IMG/VR virus record: IMGVR_UViG_3300030109_003433
Location: 1 to 56,845 of that record
DNA: 56,845 nt
Strand: one strand, 5' to 3'
Origin: a virus
The notes under the pieces were generated by a model. The model worked only from the letters and a program-made list of their open reading frames with translations. It searched no databases and was not told the DNA's origin. Positions 6,486 to 47,563 of the stretch are shown piece by piece. The position numbers and the translations under genes are program-made. Position 1 is the stretch's first letter; each line of letters opens with the position of its first letter.

Positions 6486-8345
6486 ATGCCTTTACAGAAA
6501 ATAAACATTAATGCTGGAATCAATAAGGAAAGCACCCAGTACACTAGAGATGGTGGGTGGTTCGATGGCGATAAAGTTAGATTCAGAAAAGGAAAACCTG
6601 AAAAGATAGGTGGCTGGCAGAAGTATATTGGATCTTCTTTTAAAGGGGTTGCCAGATCCTTATTAGACTGGGTTGCTTCAGACGGTACAAAATATCTTGG
6701 TGTTGGGACAAACTTAAAGTTTTATGTTAACGAGGGGACAGTATACAACGATGTTACTCCTTTAAGATCAACCACTAGCGCAGGTGATGTCACGTTTTCG
6801 GCAAGTAATGGTTCGTCTACAGTTACAGTAACTGATACAGGGCATGGAGCGGTAGCTAACGATTTTGTTACATTTTCTGATGCGGCAACTCTTGGTGGCA
6901 ATATAACAGCTACGGTGTTAAATCAAGAATATCAAGTAAATGTTGTTACCAGTGCAAATGCTTACACAATTACAGCCAAAGACACAGATGGGACGGCTGT
7001 AACAGCTAATAGTAGCGATTCTGGAAATGGTGGATCTTCAACAGTTGGAGCATACCAGATAAATACAGGCTTGAACGCTTGGTTAGAAAGCACTGGCTGG
7101 GGAGTGGGAGCATGGGATGTTGGAGCTTGGAGTTCTACCACTGCGCTTTCTTCAACAAACCAGTTGAGACTGTATTCTCAGGATTCTTTTGCAGATGATT
7201 TGTTGTTTAATGTCCGTGCTGGCGGTGTGTATTTCTGGGATGAAAGTAGCGGCACAAGCACAAGGGCAGTTAACCTGACTGCTGTTTCTGGGGCAAGCGA
7301 TGTTCCTACAGCCGCATTGCAGGTTATGGTGTCAGATGTAGATAGACACGTAATCTGTTTCGGAGTTAACCCGATAGGAAGTGCCTCGCTAAATCCTTTG
7401 TTTGTCAGGTGGTCTGACCAAGAAAGTGCAGTGAACTGGACACCTACAGCAACTAACTCTGCTGGGGGGCAAGTATTAAGCTCTGGGTCAGAGATTGTTG
7501 GTGCAGTAAAAACCAGACAGGAAATACTGATCTGGACAGATATTGGCATTCAGTCTATGCGATTTGTGGGCGCACCTTTTATATTTCAGTTTGGATCTGT
7601 GGCAGAGGGCGTTTCAATGATAAGCCCTAAATCAGCGGTTGCTGTTGGAGACTCTGTGTTCTTTATGGATAACAGGGGTTTTTATGTCTACAACGGATCT
7701 GTTAAAAGACTAGAGTGTTCTGTACTTGATTTTGTTTTAAGCAATATAAATACGGAGCAACTTGGAAAGGTGTTTGCGGCATCTAATCCAGACTTTAGTG
7801 AAGTAATGTGGTTTTACCCAGTAGGCACAGGCAATACCGATATTACTAATTATGTGTCTTATAACTATGTAGAAAATTTGTGGATGATTGGAACTATATC
7901 AAGAGCGTCTTGGACGTATGCGCCTACCAGAGACAATCCTATTGCCAGTTCCGCTGATATTGACACACCTCTGGTGCAGTATCTTTACAACCATGAGTTT
8001 GGGCATGATGACGATGGTGCAGAGATGGTGGCTTTTATAGAGTCTGGTGATCTTGAGCTTGGTGATGGCGAACAATTTGTAATGGTAAAAAGGATTATCC
8101 CAGATTTTAGTTTTGGCGGTGGGTCTTCCAGCGATGCCAGTATGACCATTACGCTAAAAGGCAAAGACTTTCCTCTTAACACAGCGACAACATTGACTAC
8201 CTCTACAGTTGTGCCGACAAGTTCTCAGTCGCATGTCAGGGCTAGATCAAGAGATATTATATTGAGGGTAGAAAACACAGGCACAGGCTATAGCTGGAGG
8301 CTGGGAACGCCTCGATTTGACATGAGAACGGATGGTAGACGCTAA
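6486..8345 (+). CDS. Virion structural protein, tail/neck stabilisation type
   Basis: 619 aa, directly after the endolysin. Starts MPLQKININAGINKESTQYT, then WFDGDKVRFRKGKPEKIGGW, a Ser/Thr-rich immunoglobulin-like insert (about 95-190) and a beta-rich C-terminal half. The opening (GINKExT.Y...GGWxDxxxVRFR.GxPEKIGGW) is a signature I associate with phage structural proteins annotated as packaged-DNA stabilisation / tail-tip proteins (P22 gp10-like). Assignment to that exact role is tentative. Confidence 0.65.
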   Translation: MPLQKININAGINKESTQYTRDGGWFDGDKVRFRKGKPEKIGGWQKYIGSSFKGVARSLLDWVASDGTKYLGVGTNLKFYVNEGTVYNDVTPLRSTTSAGDVTFSASNGSSTVTVTDTGHGAVANDFVTFSDAATLGGNITATVLNQEYQVNVVTSANAYTITAKDTDGTAVTANSSDSGNGGSSTVGAYQINTGLNAWLESTGWGVGAWDVGAWSSTTALSSTNQLRLYSQDSFADDLLFNVRAGGVYFWDESSGTSTRAVNLTAVSGASDVPTAALQVMVSDVDRHVICFGVNPIGSASLNPLFVRWSDQESAVNWTPTATNSAGGQVLSSGSEIVGAVKTRQEILIWTDIGIQSMRFVGAPFIFQFGSVAEGVSMISPKSAVAVGDSVFFMDNRGFYVYNGSVKRLECSVLDFVLSNINTEQLGKVFAASNPDFSEVMWFYPVGTGNTDITNYVSYNYVENLWMIGTISRASWTYAPTRDNPIASSADIDTPLVQYLYNHEFGHDDDGAEMVAFIESGDLELGDGEQFVMVKRIIPDFSFGGGSSSDASMTITLKGKDFPLNTATTLTTSTVVPTSSQSHVRARSRDIILRVENTGTGYSWRLGTPRFDMRTDGRR

Positions 8346-31584: not shown

Positions 31585-31781
31585 TGTGTTTTCTCCGTGA
31601 TATCTAACATGTTGAAAGGTAACGTTTCAAAATCAAAATAATCTCGCTCATCTTCATCAAAAAAATTATTAATGAAATGTTCTGTCATTTCTAGGCTCGT
31701 AAATAAACCCCAGGAGGTTGTACCTGTGCCAGTTTTGAGTCTGCTGATGACAATGAATTGACGGCACTCGTAATCACTCAT
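31581..31781 (-). CDS. Hypothetical protein, paralogue of 22350-22628
   Basis: 66 aa. FTSLEMTEHFINNFFDEDER and DYFDF match FANIEMVGDFMNHFYFGEGE and YDFF in the product of 22350-22628, with a shared strand before them (QFIVISRLK / ALIVTVVSK). This copy lacks the ~30-residue N-terminal extension. ATGA overlaps at both ends. Function unknown. Confidence 0.6.
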   Translation of the reverse strand: MSDYECRQFIVISRLKTGTGTTSWGLFTSLEMTEHFINNFFDEDERDYFDFETLPFNMLDITEKTQ

Positions 31782-31972
31782 TGTCTTGATCTCCTCTTTT
31801 TAGATTTGAGACTTAATCGAGCCATTTTAAAACCCATCTCCAAGTGATCAGGGTTGAACTGCTGTCCTGTCTCACGGCACATAACACGGAATACCTCAGA
31901 CAATTCAATTAATGATGTGTCAGGATATGCGTAGCAGTGTTTTGCAAAATCAATTATCAATCTGTTGTTCAT
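31778..31972 (-). CDS. Hypothetical protein (64 aa) behind structured leader A
   Basis: MNNRLIIDFAKHCYAYPDTS, then ELSEVFRVMCRE and a basic C-terminus (LSLKSKKRRSRQ). Its AGGAGTG ribosome site lies 10 nt after the third hairpin of the RNA element at 31996-32053, making it the immediate candidate for regulation by that structure. Confidence 0.6.
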   Translation of the reverse strand: MNNRLIIDFAKHCYAYPDTSLIELSEVFRVMCRETGQQFNPDHLEMGFKMARLSLKSKKRRSRQ

Positions 31973-31995: not shown

Positions 31996-32053
31996 TGTGG
32001 TGGATTCCACATAGCTCCCAGTCAAGGGAGCTTTCATTAAGTATCCAACTTAA
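31996..32053 (-). promoter_or_regulatory. Structured RNA leader, copy A (three hairpins)
   Basis: Read on the minus strand: hairpin 1 UUAAGU-UGGAU-ACUUAA (32053-32037); 4 nt; hairpin 2 AGCUCCC-UUGACU-GGGAGCU (32032-32013); 2 nt; hairpin 3 GUGG-AAUCCA-CCAC (32010-31997, plus one closing A-U pair). A 10-nt spacer then leads to AGGAGUG and the ATG at 31972. Copy B at 33724-33777 has the same layout with different stem bases that still pair. The loops UGGAU and AUCCA are complementary. Confidence 0.7.
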
Positions 32054-32067
32054 ATCATCAGTGTGGA

Positions 32068-32430
32068 CTAGCACTCCTCAGCATAGTTGATAACGATACG
32101 AATACTGCCTTTTGATTCCTTGATGTGAGCCTCCCTTGTCGGGCATTCTCTCAGCCATTCTAAAACCTGATGTTTCGTAGGTTTAGCCCAGACCAACCTG
32201 TCTCTAGGCTCACTTTTAAAATGCTTAAAAAGATCATCTGTGGTTGTGGCTAAGCCAATTACACAGAGTCCAGAGATACTCATACCACTTACGACAAACA
32301 TATAGTGGCCCATTATTCCTTCTGGATGATCGCCAGAGATAAGCTCAGACAAACCAATCATGAAAAGAGATAGACCCAGTAATGTGCCTAGCGCATAAAC
32401 CAATCCGATAAATACATATTTCATTTTCAA
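32068..32430 (-). CDS. Two-TM membrane protein
   Basis: 120 aa. Helix 1 about 5-32 (YVFIGLVYALGTLLGLSLFM), helix 2 about 42-65 (HYMFVVSGMSISGLCVIGLA), then a soluble C-terminal half (HQVLEWLRECPTREAHIKES). Preceded by AGGAGG. It could alter the host membrane or block superinfection; no family recognised. Confidence 0.6.
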   Translation of the reverse strand: MKMKYVFIGLVYALGTLLGLSLFMIGLSELISGDHPEGIMGHYMFVVSGMSISGLCVIGLATTTDDLFKHFKSEPRDRLVWAKPTKHQVLEWLRECPTREAHIKESKGSIRIVINYAEEC

Positions 32431-32831
32431 ACCTCCTTTATTAGCTGTGCTAAATCATCCAGAGTGTGTTCACGTGACCACGTTTTGTTTCGTTGCTTTT
32501 CCAGTTTGTTGATCCTTAGAGTTTTATCAATGGACTCAAGAAACATTTGACAAAAAGTATCATCGAAATATTTACGTTGATGGGTAATAGAATCAAACTC
32601 ATCCCAACAATCTCCCGCCAGATACATAAATAACTTCATGAATTTTTCGGGTTGGGCTTTCTTTATAGGATGCCCTGATATGGAAGGTTTCACTCCCTCC
32701 AGATCCTCCACGTTCTTTATCTCAGGGTAGTCTTTTCTATTGTTAGTGTAGATTTCCCACAAAATCATCGCGGCATACGTCACAATAGTTTTCTGATCTA
32801 AAACTCCAGTATTGCCAAATTTCTTAGCCAT
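32427..32831 (-). CDS. Hypothetical helical protein (134 aa)
   Basis: MAKKFGNTGVLDQKTIVTYA, then AAMILWEIYTNNRKDYPEIK, FMKLFMYLAGDCWDEFDSIT and a basic helical C-terminus. The 'I(L)WEIYTNN...P' block faintly resembles the LWEAFLEAPERFP block of the product at 33793-34047, possibly a distant relative. AGAGGAGGTG precedes the ATG. Function unknown. Confidence 0.55.
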   Translation of the reverse strand: MAKKFGNTGVLDQKTIVTYAAMILWEIYTNNRKDYPEIKNVEDLEGVKPSISGHPIKKAQPEKFMKLFMYLAGDCWDEFDSITHQRKYFDDTFCQMFLESIDKTLRINKLEKQRNKTWSREHTLDDLAQLIKEV

Positions 32832-33259
32832 TAGCTCACCTCCTCTAGTGAATTACTAATTTTATCTGATTCAGATTTCAACAGTTTTTTAAGCTCTTTA
32901 ATTGCTGTGATGTGGTCTTTATGGGATTCACTAACAGCTATAAAATCTTCTACTTTGGCGAATCCAATCTCTTTCCAGTCAGAACCAATCACTCTTTCTG
33001 ACACATAGATAATTGCCGTCCATCCACAGAATGTTTCACTAATGTTATAGCGGTATTCCGTATCGCCGTGAAGCTCGTGACTTTCGGTAATCTCTGCTCG
33101 TTCATTTCCACGTATGAAAGATTCAGCAGTTAACCTTTTACCTCCCTCGATAGCGTTAGCAAATAAAATGGCCGCACCTGATAGGTACCCGTCGCAATGA
33201 TGGTATATAGTCACATCAGATAGATCCCCTTTAAACTGATAAGTTGCTCTTGTTGACAT
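32831..33259 (-). CDS. Conserved hypothetical (MSTRATYQF family)
   Basis: I use ATG 33259; the GTG at 33268 is part of the ribosome-site leader AGGAGTG. 142 aa starting MSTRATYQF, with TIYHHCDGYLSGAAILFANA and WTAIIYVSER. I recall 'MSTRATY.F...(Y/I)HH.DGYP.GAA' proteins near ArdC-type genes on phages and plasmids. Probable single alpha/beta domain; role unknown, context suggests host take-over or anti-defence. Confidence 0.6.
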   Translation of the reverse strand: MSTRATYQFKGDLSDVTIYHHCDGYLSGAAILFANAIEGGKRLTAESFIRGNERAEITESHELHGDTEYRYNISETFCGWTAIIYVSERVIGSDWKEIGFAKVEDFIAVSESHKDHITAIKELKKLLKSESDKISNSLEEVS

Positions 33260-33270
33260 TTCAAACACTC

Positions 33271-33702
33271 CTATTGGTTATAGATTTCATTCAGGTAAAA
33301 AGAGAAAGTAGAATTAGCTTTGTATTTGACCGGAAATTTTCCAGAATCCCAACTGTCAAAAGCAAAGCTTTCCTGATGTGCAATTTCAACATCAAAGACA
33401 ATGCTGTCATCTGTCAGACTTACTTCTATTAATGTTGCTCTAGCTAAATCGTAGTCACATAATCTGTTGCAGAATGTCACTGTGTTATCAATCTGATTAA
33501 GATTTGATCTAGCCTCCTTAGTGGTAGAAAAATCAAAATCTTCTGTAAAATATTCTCTGTAATGATCACTCGAATCATGAGTAATCATTAAATGATTTTG
33601 TTCAGAAATTCTCTGAAAACTTTTTAGTGTAGCTAACAGTTCTTTAAGATTTGTAAAACAGTTAGATACGATTGGCTTCCTATTAACTTTTCCTAATGAC
33701 AT
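33271..33702 (-). CDS. Hypothetical protein behind structured leader B
   Basis: ATG 33702 (MSLGKVNRKPIVSNC) has AGGAG upstream; the longer frame to 33738 would run through the RNA element. 143 aa, with FTNLKELLATLKSFQRISEQ, an acidic middle and a beta-rich end (FSFYLNEIYNQ). The leader GGAGTGTTTGAAATGTC is shared exactly with the next gene at 33259. Function unknown. Confidence 0.55.
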   Translation of the reverse strand: MSLGKVNRKPIVSNCFTNLKELLATLKSFQRISEQNHLMITHDSSDHYREYFTEDFDFSTTKEARSNLNQIDNTVTFCNRLCDYDLARATLIEVSLTDDSIVFDVEIAHQESFAFDSWDSGKFPVKYKANSTFSFYLNEIYNQ

Positions 33703-33723
33703 TTCAAACACTCCTAATATTTG

Positions 33724-33777
33724 TGGGTGGATTCCCATGAGGCCCTATTAGGGCCTTTCGGCAAGTGTCCAACTTGC
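33724..33777 (-). promoter_or_regulatory. Structured RNA leader, copy B (three hairpins)
   Basis: Minus strand: hairpin 1 GCAAGU-UGGAC-ACUUGC (33777-33761); 4 nt (CGAA, versus UGAA in copy A); hairpin 2 AGGCCCU-AAU-AGGGCCU (33756-33740); 2 nt; hairpin 3 UGGG-AAUCCA-CCCA (33737-33724). Eight nt later comes AGGAGUG and ATG 33702. All stems differ from copy A by paired changes; loops UGGAY and AAUCCA are kept. Confidence 0.7.
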
Positions 33778-33792
33778 TCTCATCAGATGGGC

Positions 33793-34047
33793 TTAAATGT
33801 TTTTGTCCTCCTCCGCTAGCCAATCGGGACAAAAATCCCAGTCAAAAGTGCCACAACCATCTCTAATTTCTTCTCGTGCATTGTTCCAATCTCTCTCACA
33901 TTTACGAGCCATACCAGATACAAATACTCGACAAAAGGAAGTGCCATCCGTTGCCCGTAATTTGTCTAGGTTGGGGAATCTCTCCGGTGCTTCTAGGAAT
34001 GCTTCCCATAGACACATTGCTGTTATTAACTCTAGTTCATTATTCAT
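33793..34047 (-). CDS. Hypothetical acidic protein (84 aa)
   Basis: ATG 34047 with AGGAGTGATAGAG upstream. MNNELELITAMCLWEAFLEA, FCRVFVSGMARKCERDWNNA, and an acidic Cys/Trp-rich end (DGCGTFDWDFCPDWLAEED). Family not recognised; one of several small genes sharing the same leader sequence. Confidence 0.55.
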   Translation of the reverse strand: MNNELELITAMCLWEAFLEAPERFPNLDKLRATDGTSFCRVFVSGMARKCERDWNNAREEIRDGCGTFDWDFCPDWLAEEDKNI

Positions 34048-34779: not shown

Positions 34780-35817
34780 TCACGCGGCCTCCTCTATGAT
34801 TTGTGGTTGCATATCAAACAAGAATGTAACTGCTTGTGTTGATTCTCTCGCGGCATCAATCACGCCCCGCTTGTCGTTGCCTAAATGCTGTATCCAGTTA
34901 TTAATATATATTGCGTGGTCTTCTCGTGGCTCCATGCTAACTCCCAGAATGTGCGAGAGTTGCGCGGATCCCATCTCTGCAATTAACTCCTCGTAAGCAT
35001 ACAAAGGATCGCCCCATCTATTAGACTTGAGTCTATCGAGTCTGGATTTATGCCCAGTCCAGTGTGTTAGCTCATGGAGTAAAACGGCGTAGTAAGCTTC
35101 AGGACTATCAAATAGTTCCTTATCAGGCATTCCAATATAATCTTTTTGCGGGTTAAAGAAGGCACCCTTTTGACCGTGTTTGATAATCGCGTTGGTGTTC
35201 TTTATGAATTGCTCTACTCGTTCGATTTTTTCGAAAATTGTTTCTGGTTCTTTTTCTTGTACTGGGTTGAGTTCGGCGTAAGTTTTTGCATTGTCTTTGA
35301 TGACGCTAACAAATGGCTTTTTTAACTTGGTGATTTCTTTTCCGTTCTCTTTAACTGTTACAGTTTCGAATACGGCCTCTTTCACCATCTCGGCATTAAA
35401 TACAGTTAAATTAGTATTGCGGAAATAATCGGGCTTCTCTTTTTGATCTCCGGTTTTTCCGTTCTCGTCGGGATCTTTGTTATAGCATGGGAACGTACAA
35501 AATATTTTAGCGTCATGAGATTTACCTACAACCTGAAAACCCATCTCTGCCCATCCGTTGTAGGTGTTCCAATATGGGCTTTTAAATTCTTGTTCTTGGG
35601 CTACACTGTTTAGAATTAATTGATTTAGAAATGATCCGTACACTCTTCCGGTCTTCGCATTGCGTGGAACGATTGCTGTACCATCGCGCCAACTCTTAGA
35701 CCAATCCGCACCTTGAGACTGCATCATATCTATCACTTTATCTGTCACCCATTGGCAAGCCTTTTCATTTGAACTGTGCTTGCTAGCAGATTTCTTTTTA
35801 TAAGTTTTCTTAGCCAT
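34780..35817 (-). CDS. ardC: ArdC-like antirestriction protein with zincin domain
   Basis: 345 aa. The N-terminal part (about 15-140) matches the ArdC ssDNA-binding domain (WRDGTAIVPRNAKTGRVYGS, then NQLIL, WNTYNGWAEMG and FRNTNLTVFNAEM). The C-terminal part has the metallopeptidase motif H248-E-L-T-H252-W-T-G-H256 and a downstream YAYEELIAEMGSA supplying the third ligand. ArdC-type proteins protect incoming DNA from restriction. First gene of the leftward operon, as expected for an early protein. A GGCCGC/GCGGCC hairpin overlaps its stop (34774-34789). Confidence 0.85.
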   Translation of the reverse strand: MAKKTYKKKSASKHSSNEKACQWVTDKVIDMMQSQGADWSKSWRDGTAIVPRNAKTGRVYGSFLNQLILNSVAQEQEFKSPYWNTYNGWAEMGFQVVGKSHDAKIFCTFPCYNKDPDENGKTGDQKEKPDYFRNTNLTVFNAEMVKEAVFETVTVKENGKEITKLKKPFVSVIKDNAKTYAELNPVQEKEPETIFEKIERVEQFIKNTNAIIKHGQKGAFFNPQKDYIGMPDKELFDSPEAYYAVLLHELTHWTGHKSRLDRLKSNRWGDPLYAYEELIAEMGSAQLSHILGVSMEPREDHAIYINNWIQHLGNDKRGVIDAARESTQAVTFLFDMQPQIIEEAA

Positions 35818-46968: not shown

Positions 46969-47035
46969 GTTCCATGTGGAACATTTTAATTTCCCTGACT
47001 GCGTAAGCAGACACTAGCCAAGACAGGAGAATATA

Positions 47036-47563
47036 ATGGCTAATACAACTTTTAATGGCCCAGTCCGTTCAGAGAATGGATTTACGGTTATATCCAAAAA
47101 CAGTACAACAGGTACTGTTACAACTGAGTTCACCCTTGACGGAAACGGCTTGCAGGTCACTCCAGTTGCCTTAGCAGATACAACAGCTATTTCGCTAACA
47201 GCAACGGCTCATGGAGGAAGAACCTCTGTAGTTCCTGCTCTTTCAGCTAATTGCACTTTGACTTTGCCTAGTCCCTCTGCTGGTGTTTTCTTTAAGCTGG
47301 TTTACGGTGGTGCGGCAGAAGAGGCAGAAAATCTGATTATTGATACAGGATCAGACACAAACTTCTATCTTGGCGGCATCGTTCATCTTGACTCAAACGC
47401 AGATAATGTTTCTGTATATGCAGATGGAAACTCAAACTCAATCCTGACGTTAACGGATTTTGGTTTGTTTGAGATTAATGTACTGGCAAAAGATTCAACC
47501 AATTGGTATATCTGGGGCTATCAAGAAGGTGCGGATGTTCCTGCCTTCACTGACCAGTCATAA
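47036..47563 (+). CDS. Beta-rich structural protein, fibre/spike-like
   Basis: 175 aa. TTFNGPVRSENGFTVISKNS, then a Thr/Ala-rich beta region and LPSPSAGVFFKLVYGG, FYLGGIVHLDSNADN, LFEINVLAKDSTNWYIWGY. The FNGPV(R)S.NGF start is known to me from cyanophage and marine phage capsid-accessory proteins. Bracketed by two terminators, so perhaps expressed as its own unit. Exact role unknown. Confidence 0.6.
   Translation: MANTTFNGPVRSENGFTVISKNSTTGTVTTEFTLDGNGLQVTPVALADTTAISLTATAHGGRTSVVPALSANCTLTLPSPSAGVFFKLVYGGAAEEAENLIIDTGSDTNFYLGGIVHLDSNADNVSVYADGNSNSILTLTDFGLFEINVLAKDSTNWYIWGYQEGADVPAFTDQS

Follow-up and report, generated by a model that had tools for sequence, protein, structure and literature searches.

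Predicted pseudoknotted type I hammerhead ribozymes with a competing 3′ hairpin between the genes of a tailed phage

Introduction

Two intergenic regions on the minus strand of the virus record IMGVR_UViG_3300030109_003433 carry RNA elements of the same layout ahead of genes whose protein products do not align with each other. What does a structured RNA do when it is placed twice in one run of unrelated genes? The window, by which we mean the entire stretch of 56,845 nucleotides analyzed here, belongs to a tailed phage and carries primase/helicase, terminase, and portal genes. An initial annotation made from the letters alone described each element as three hairpins with paired sequence differences between the copies, and proposed a cis-acting translational regulator, stability element, or ligand-binding leader.

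According to the text of PMC3088659, bacteria and prophages have hammerhead ribozymes of each of the three types, with pseudoknots in ∼40% and clusters that flank genes, and tandem phage hammerheads cleave in vitro and in Escherichia coli. Since hammerheads with pseudoknots between phage genes are already known from that text, neither the identity that we assign to the present elements nor their setting is new. A 2017 review (PMC6155905) regarded what hammerheads do in prokaryotes and phages as an open question.

Results

Both Elements Have the Organization of Type I Hammerheads

The two elements lie where the initial annotation had placed them, and their hairpins and loops, as well as the AGGAGUG that follows each, are as it described. 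However, it began each element ∼14 nt too late, so that 13 to 14 upstream bases were left out and the 5′ strand of stem I and the CUGAUGA core were overlooked. With these bases included, copy A occupies positions 33723-33791 (−) and copy B positions 31996-32066 (−). On the basis of sequence and covariation, we identify both as pseudoknotted type I hammerhead ribozymes of a phage subclass with a competing 3′ hairpin. In each copy, three helices surround the core, with stem I at the open end.

Copy A reads CCCAU-CUGAUGA-[stem II, UGGAC]-GAA-[AGGCCC UAAUA GGGCCU]-C^AUGGG-AAUCCA-CCCA, where the caret marks the predicted cut. The 5′ strand of stem I, CCCAU (33787-33791), pairs with 33734-33738 and is followed by the core strand CUGAUGA (33780-33786), stem II (33760-33779; GCAAGU/ACUUGC with the loop UGGAC), the core strand GAA (33757-33759), and stem III (33740-33756; AGGCCC..GGGCCU, closed by an A-U pair). 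The cut is predicted, from the H17 position relative to the core, after C33739 and before A33738. Next come AAUCCA (33728-33733), which can pair with loop II to form the pseudoknot, and a repeat of the stem I strand, CCCA (33724-33727), which we call the echo and which is complementary to UGGG at 33734-33737. Copy B has the same order, CCACA-CUGAUGA-[stem II, UGGAU]-GAA-[AGCUCCC UUGAC UGGGAGCU]-A^UGUGG-AAUCCA-CCACA. Its stem I strand CCACA (32062-32066) pairs with UGUGG (32007-32011), and the core strand CUGAUGA (32055-32061), stem II (32036-32054; UUAAGU/ACUUAA with the loop UGGAU), stem III (32013-32032; AGCUCCC..GGGAGCU), a predicted cut after A32012 and before U32011 (again from the H17 position), AAUCCA (32001-32006) opposite loop II, and the echo CCACA (31996-32000), opposite UGUGG, follow in turn. 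The helices of copy A were assigned from sequence and covariation and its core from sequence and invariance among homologues; stems and core of copy B were read from the sequence, and its pseudoknot from sequence and covariation. Both echoes rest on permutation and covariation, that of copy A also on counts of product hairpins.

The core strands of both copies, CUGAUGA and GAAA, fit the type I requirement CUGANGA/GAAA, and neither has G at the cut site, where copy A has C and copy B has A. At the base of stem II (10.1-11.1), copy A has a G-C pair with a bulged A and copy B a U•U, and these features may make the two ribozymes slower. Between the copies, stem I differs by three compensatory pairs (CCCAU/AUGGG versus CCACA/UGUGG). 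The paired differences noted initially are likewise real: two in hairpin 1 (G-C to U-A and C-G to U-A), three in hairpin 2, and two in hairpin 3. Hairpins 1 and 2 of that layout correspond to stems II and III, whereas hairpin 3 can form only in place of stem I. The spacer YGAA of the layout is better read as the end of stem II plus the core GAA.

A hammerhead descriptor, which itself required an A15.1-U16.1 pair and a cut-site base other than G, matched exactly two places in the window, copies A and B, compared to 0.03 per mononucleotide-shuffled window. A covariance model built from homologues only, with the window copies left out, scored copy A at 71.4 bits (E 1e-16) and copy B at 60.1 bits (E 1e-13); the next match in the window reached 10.8 bits. 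Folding energy alone is weaker evidence, with z values of −2.9 and −1.6 for the two elements. For copy B alone, three hairpins are predicted, as expected of a noncatalytic three-hairpin regulator or ligand-binding leader, but such a leader, lacking stem I, explains neither the invariant hammerhead core nor a stem I that covaries over three pairs. We consider it very improbable. Thus, the initial annotation was right that this is a structured, covarying, cis-acting RNA; its ligand-binding leader or simple translational regulator gives way to a type I hammerhead. A riboswitch was also rejected: the conserved core is the hammerhead core, the neighboring genes have no Pfam match, and the downstream proteins are unrelated.

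The Elements Fall Below Rfam Thresholds

Neither element gave an above-threshold hammerhead in Rfam searches, whether these were run at the gathering threshold or with E values up to 10. Related phage contigs served as a control, and there the same scan did return hammerhead matches, of type I, type III, and HH9. Hammerhead_1 (RF00163) shares the type I architecture of the window elements but did not match them; its best match in this genome, 12.9 bits against a cut-off of 34, lies elsewhere, and in a related contig (L382) it finds another phage hammerhead with 36.1 bits. The RAGATH-1 hammerhead (RF03152) gave the best subthreshold alignment to copy A, covering the core and stems I and III, with 17.7 bits over model positions 26 to 77 and the 5′ part (1 to 25) unmatched (cut-off 56.3), and gave no match to copy B. 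The initial annotation had been unable to name a family, which is understandable since Rfam falls short of threshold too. That Rfam 15 misses the subclass means that current annotation overlooks it.

Homologues Preserve the Pairing, Including the Pseudoknot

The initial annotation had named further homologues with preserved pairing as what its proposal stood or fell by, and we found these (64 in the class, 44 aligned). Our earliest loose pattern, run on viral and genome contigs, was discarded since the matches listed were mostly chance. The first productive scan of IMG/VR combined the core with GGAYAC and GGAATCC, demanding neither stems nor echo, and returned 37 stretches. BLAST from one of these found close variants in cultured phages, namely Faecalibacterium phage FP_Brigit, Flavonifractor phage Castelnaud, and Salisaeta icosahedral phage 1. 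Two further scans raised the collection from phage contigs to ∼250 distinct hammerheads of type I, among them a pseudoknot class of 64 nonredundant elements, mostly from IMG/VR contigs, with one to six copies per record (E up to 0.01).

Across 44 aligned homologues, stems I to III and the pseudoknot show standard pairs in 93.8% of cells and changes on both sides in 17 of 21 pairs (stem I 3, stem II 6, stem III 4, and all four pairs of the pseudoknot). The covariation score is 0.531, compared to 0.13 for shuffled alignments and at most 0.054 for slid structures; these covariation figures are partly selected because the finder demanded pairing in stems I, II, and III, but not in the pseudoknot or echo. 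The core is unchanged in all 44 except at the N of CUGANGA, and the A-U closing pair (A15.1-U16.1, columns 53-73), which the descriptor also demanded, is present in 44 of 44. The tertiary contact between the stem I side and loop II is the pseudoknot GGAY/AUCC. Here the initial annotation had noted that the loop UGGAY is complementary to AUCCA and had suggested a kissing interaction or pseudoknot, which the homologues bear out: GGAU/AUCC is replaced by GAAU/AUUC, UGGC/GCCA, or CGC/GCG.

Searches with the surroundings of the elements returned less. The complete 1.8-kb region had no BLASTN match among phages, and no homologues of the gene after copy A were found. The search with the ArdC gene described below gave one 98% relative, whose contig ends short of the ribozyme region and has no hammerhead. 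In sampled bacterial genomes, 3 of 291, 2 of 274, and 0 of 295 matched under strict filters; as the few matches were weaker variants, these counts say little about prophages.

A Covarying Echo Can Compete with Stem I

The echo, directly after AAUCCA, repeats four bases from the start of the stem I 5′ strand, in the forms CCCG, CCGC, CCAC, CCGU, or CCCA. It is complementary to the strand 3′ of the cut, and the resulting helix is the hairpin 3 of the initial annotation. Four Watson-Crick echo pairs are possible in 49 of the 64 nonredundant elements versus 10.9 after permutation (maximum 24 in 20,000 permutations), although kinship among contigs inflates such counts; in the scan without an echo requirement, the figures are 25 of 34 versus 6.9. 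The two variable echo positions match stem I in 49 of 55 elements, in five combinations (15, 10, 8, 8, and 8). An alignment of the echo helix gives a covariation score of 0.616 versus at most 0.107 for slid structures, but the permutation count is the fairer measure because the rows of that alignment were picked by hand. Even so, a single phage record often has several stem I types, and every type is followed by the echo that matches it (as in L248, L255, L259, and L405). Variants from Salisaeta icosahedral phage 1 and FP_Brigit keep the echo while their pseudoknot bases differ, and in elements with AAUCCAUCUCGU a shifted six-pair hairpin (ACGGGA/UCUCGU in L251) replaces the exact echo. A hairpin at the 5′ end of the cut product is predicted for 56 of the 64 elements of the pseudoknot class versus 35.7 with swapped tails.

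The echo is not essential, as one phage (L269) has four hammerheads in which the pseudoknot is retained and the echo is missing. Nor do the other phage type I hammerheads have a clear excess of such hairpins (40 of 184 versus 27.9 with swapped and 37.7 with shuffled tails). Both observations fit simple mRNA chopping, in which hammerheads do nothing but divide messages and sequence conservation brings the echo along, and processing into operon- or gene-length mRNAs is the role proposed in the text of PMC3088659. Plain conservation, however, cannot make variable echo positions follow stem I in five combinations, and some elements without an exact echo form the shifted hairpin instead. We therefore regard chopping alone as improbable.

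We also considered the echo as a general feature of phage type I hammerheads, which was unsupported outside the pseudoknot class, where scattered members have one. Other type I classes, whose loops are short (AUA, AUAA, or UAAA-like), include elements in which the strand past the cut is also followed by its own complement (L386 at 3171 and 4135; L322 at 8931 and 10570; L344 at 8165; L356 at 3101; L428, L430, and L431). This suggests that the echo arose more than once, although the excess over all nonpseudoknot elements was not significant.

The Elements Sit Between a Stop Codon and a Start Region

Copy A begins one nucleotide after the UAA of its upstream gene (33793-33795, −) and copy B one nucleotide after a UAG (32068-32070, −). 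The genes downstream, 33271-33702 (−) for copy A and 31778-31972 (−) for copy B, have no Pfam match, and their start codons lie 36 and 39 nt past the respective predicted cuts. This arrangement is typical of the pseudoknot class: a stop codon precedes stem I by 0 to 3 nt in 48 of 64 elements, and a Shine-Dalgarno-like site with a start codon follows in 56 of 64, the median distance from cut to start being 37 nt. Among all type I elements found, a stop codon lies near stem I in 131 of 246 (19% at random positions) and a Shine-Dalgarno-like site with a start codon follows in 175 of 246 (23% at random positions).

An ArdC-type antirestriction gene (ArdcN plus MPTase-PolyVal; 34780-35817, −) lies just upstream in the same leftward gene run. 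In L039, another contig, a gene that by eye looks similar to ArdC comes directly after a hammerhead (2434-2501). Separately, an identical leader, AGGAGUGUUUGAAAUG, stands ahead of two unrelated neighboring genes of the window (33274-33259 and 33715-33700, −), only one of which is preceded by a ribozyme. A Mu-gpT-DE RNA scores above the Rfam threshold (51 bits) at 46993-47038 (+), just past a predicted major head protein; the Mu-like origin that this match suggested was unsupported by the primase/helicase, terminase, portal, and ArdC genes scanned.

Near-Equal Folds Are Compatible with a Product Trap

When the pseudoknot is disregarded, the hammerhead and echo folds of the uncut RNA differ by a median of 0.1 kcal/mol. 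The median energy of the 3′ product hairpin alone is −5.4 kcal/mol. Near-equal folds and a stable product hairpin are the energetics that a product trap requires. By these nearest-neighbor energies, the pseudoknot could keep the RNA catalytically folded before the cut, and the product hairpin should win afterward, when stem I is no longer intramolecular. As only one nucleotide separates pseudoknot and echo, the echo could compete before cutting too.

This last point bears on whether the echo is mainly part of a regulated switch, its hairpin being the OFF state of the uncut RNA. In such a switch, a terminating ribosome or other factor would mask the 5′ strand of stem I, the echo would pair, cutting would be blocked, and the operon would stay joined. 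The near-equal energies, the stop codons so close to stem I in both copies and across the class, and the transcription of the echo directly past the pseudoknot strand all agree with it. However, every part needed for cutting is transcribed ahead of the echo, the pseudoknot favors the ribozyme fold, and no ligand or factor site was seen in the elements. We judge the switch, the main rival reading, unlikely.

Discussion

The explanation that we consider highly probable as a whole is a pseudoknotted, self-cutting hammerhead between genes whose echo acts as a product trap and 5′ hairpin. As transcription of the polycistronic RNA proceeds, the three stems form and loop II pairs with the AUCC just past stem I, as the covariation shows. 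The RNA would then cut itself after C33739 and A32012, leaving a 2′,3′-cyclic phosphate on the upstream message and a 5′-OH on the downstream message, and the two cuts would excise a four-gene segment of ∼1.73 kb. Most likely, the strand 3′ of the cut would leave stem I and pair with the echo, forming a hairpin 0 to 1 base from the new 5′ end. Such refolding would free the upstream half and make cutting irreversible, and the 5′-OH mRNA would gain a structured end beside its ribosome-binding site and should resist decay that depends on the 5′ end. A reason for protecting a cut mRNA exists: the 5′-OH left by glmS cleavage exposes that mRNA to RNase J1 (PMC3328962). The glmS ribozyme resembles the window elements as a self-cutting 5′ leader that yields a 5′-OH mRNA, but it has an unrelated fold, is ligand dependent, and has its product destroyed by RNase J1 (PMC3328962).

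We are evenly divided on the broader proposal that the elements represent a phage hammerhead subclass that is distinct and widespread and has a product trap built in. In it, a single strand would serve first the catalytic helix and then, after cleavage, a covarying hairpin, and would provide both irreversible release and protection of the 5′-OH end. The type I hammerheads described in the text of Perreault et al. 2011 (PMC3088659) share the core, the three helices, the open stem I, the stem I-stem II pseudoknot, and the occurrence of several gene-flanking copies in prophages. The window class differs in its covarying downstream echo and in that nearly all members lie between a stop codon and a start region. 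Our comparison covers passages of the text of PMC3088659, and these describe no echo. Within a literature that includes few subscription journals, a conserved competing hairpin tentatively appears to be undescribed. The crystallized pseudoknot hammerhead (PMC11300833) likewise combines a hammerhead core with a pseudoknot, but there the pseudoknot replaces helix II, whereas in the window class helix II remains an ordinary hairpin, and its loop pairs on the 3′ side of stem I. The halovirus HF1/HF2 variant is comparable in position, since its hammerhead precedes a start codon by 13 nt and the mapped mRNA 5′ end lies at most 3 nt from the cut; it differs in being a core variant from archaeal viruses, with no echo in its description in the text of PMC3088659.

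A covarying post-cleavage hairpin connects the ribozyme with what becomes of the mRNA downstream. If true, the product trap would be a specific, testable answer to why phages keep ribozymes between genes, and it may offer a design for irreversible self-cutting mRNAs with 5′-hairpin protection.

Other phage hammerheads were encountered along the way. Five phage contigs (L384, L382, L292, L293, and L316) carry four to nine type I hammerheads each, many directly ahead of start codons. Subthreshold matches of other types occur among them, namely type III and HH9 in L382, RAGATH-1 in L384, and twister-P1 amid the hammerheads of L316, and it is possible that mixed ribozyme types cut one operon. The hammerhead of phage Castelnaud (L279) is antisense to an annotated gene. 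Three gut-phage hammerheads (L279 at 1216-1285, L377 at 7999-8173, and L383 at 2146-2195) are followed by a common block, CCCGTCGGCAC..GGGG..CCGCCGCCCC(T)n, with no obvious start codon, and are possibly part of a noncoding RNA.
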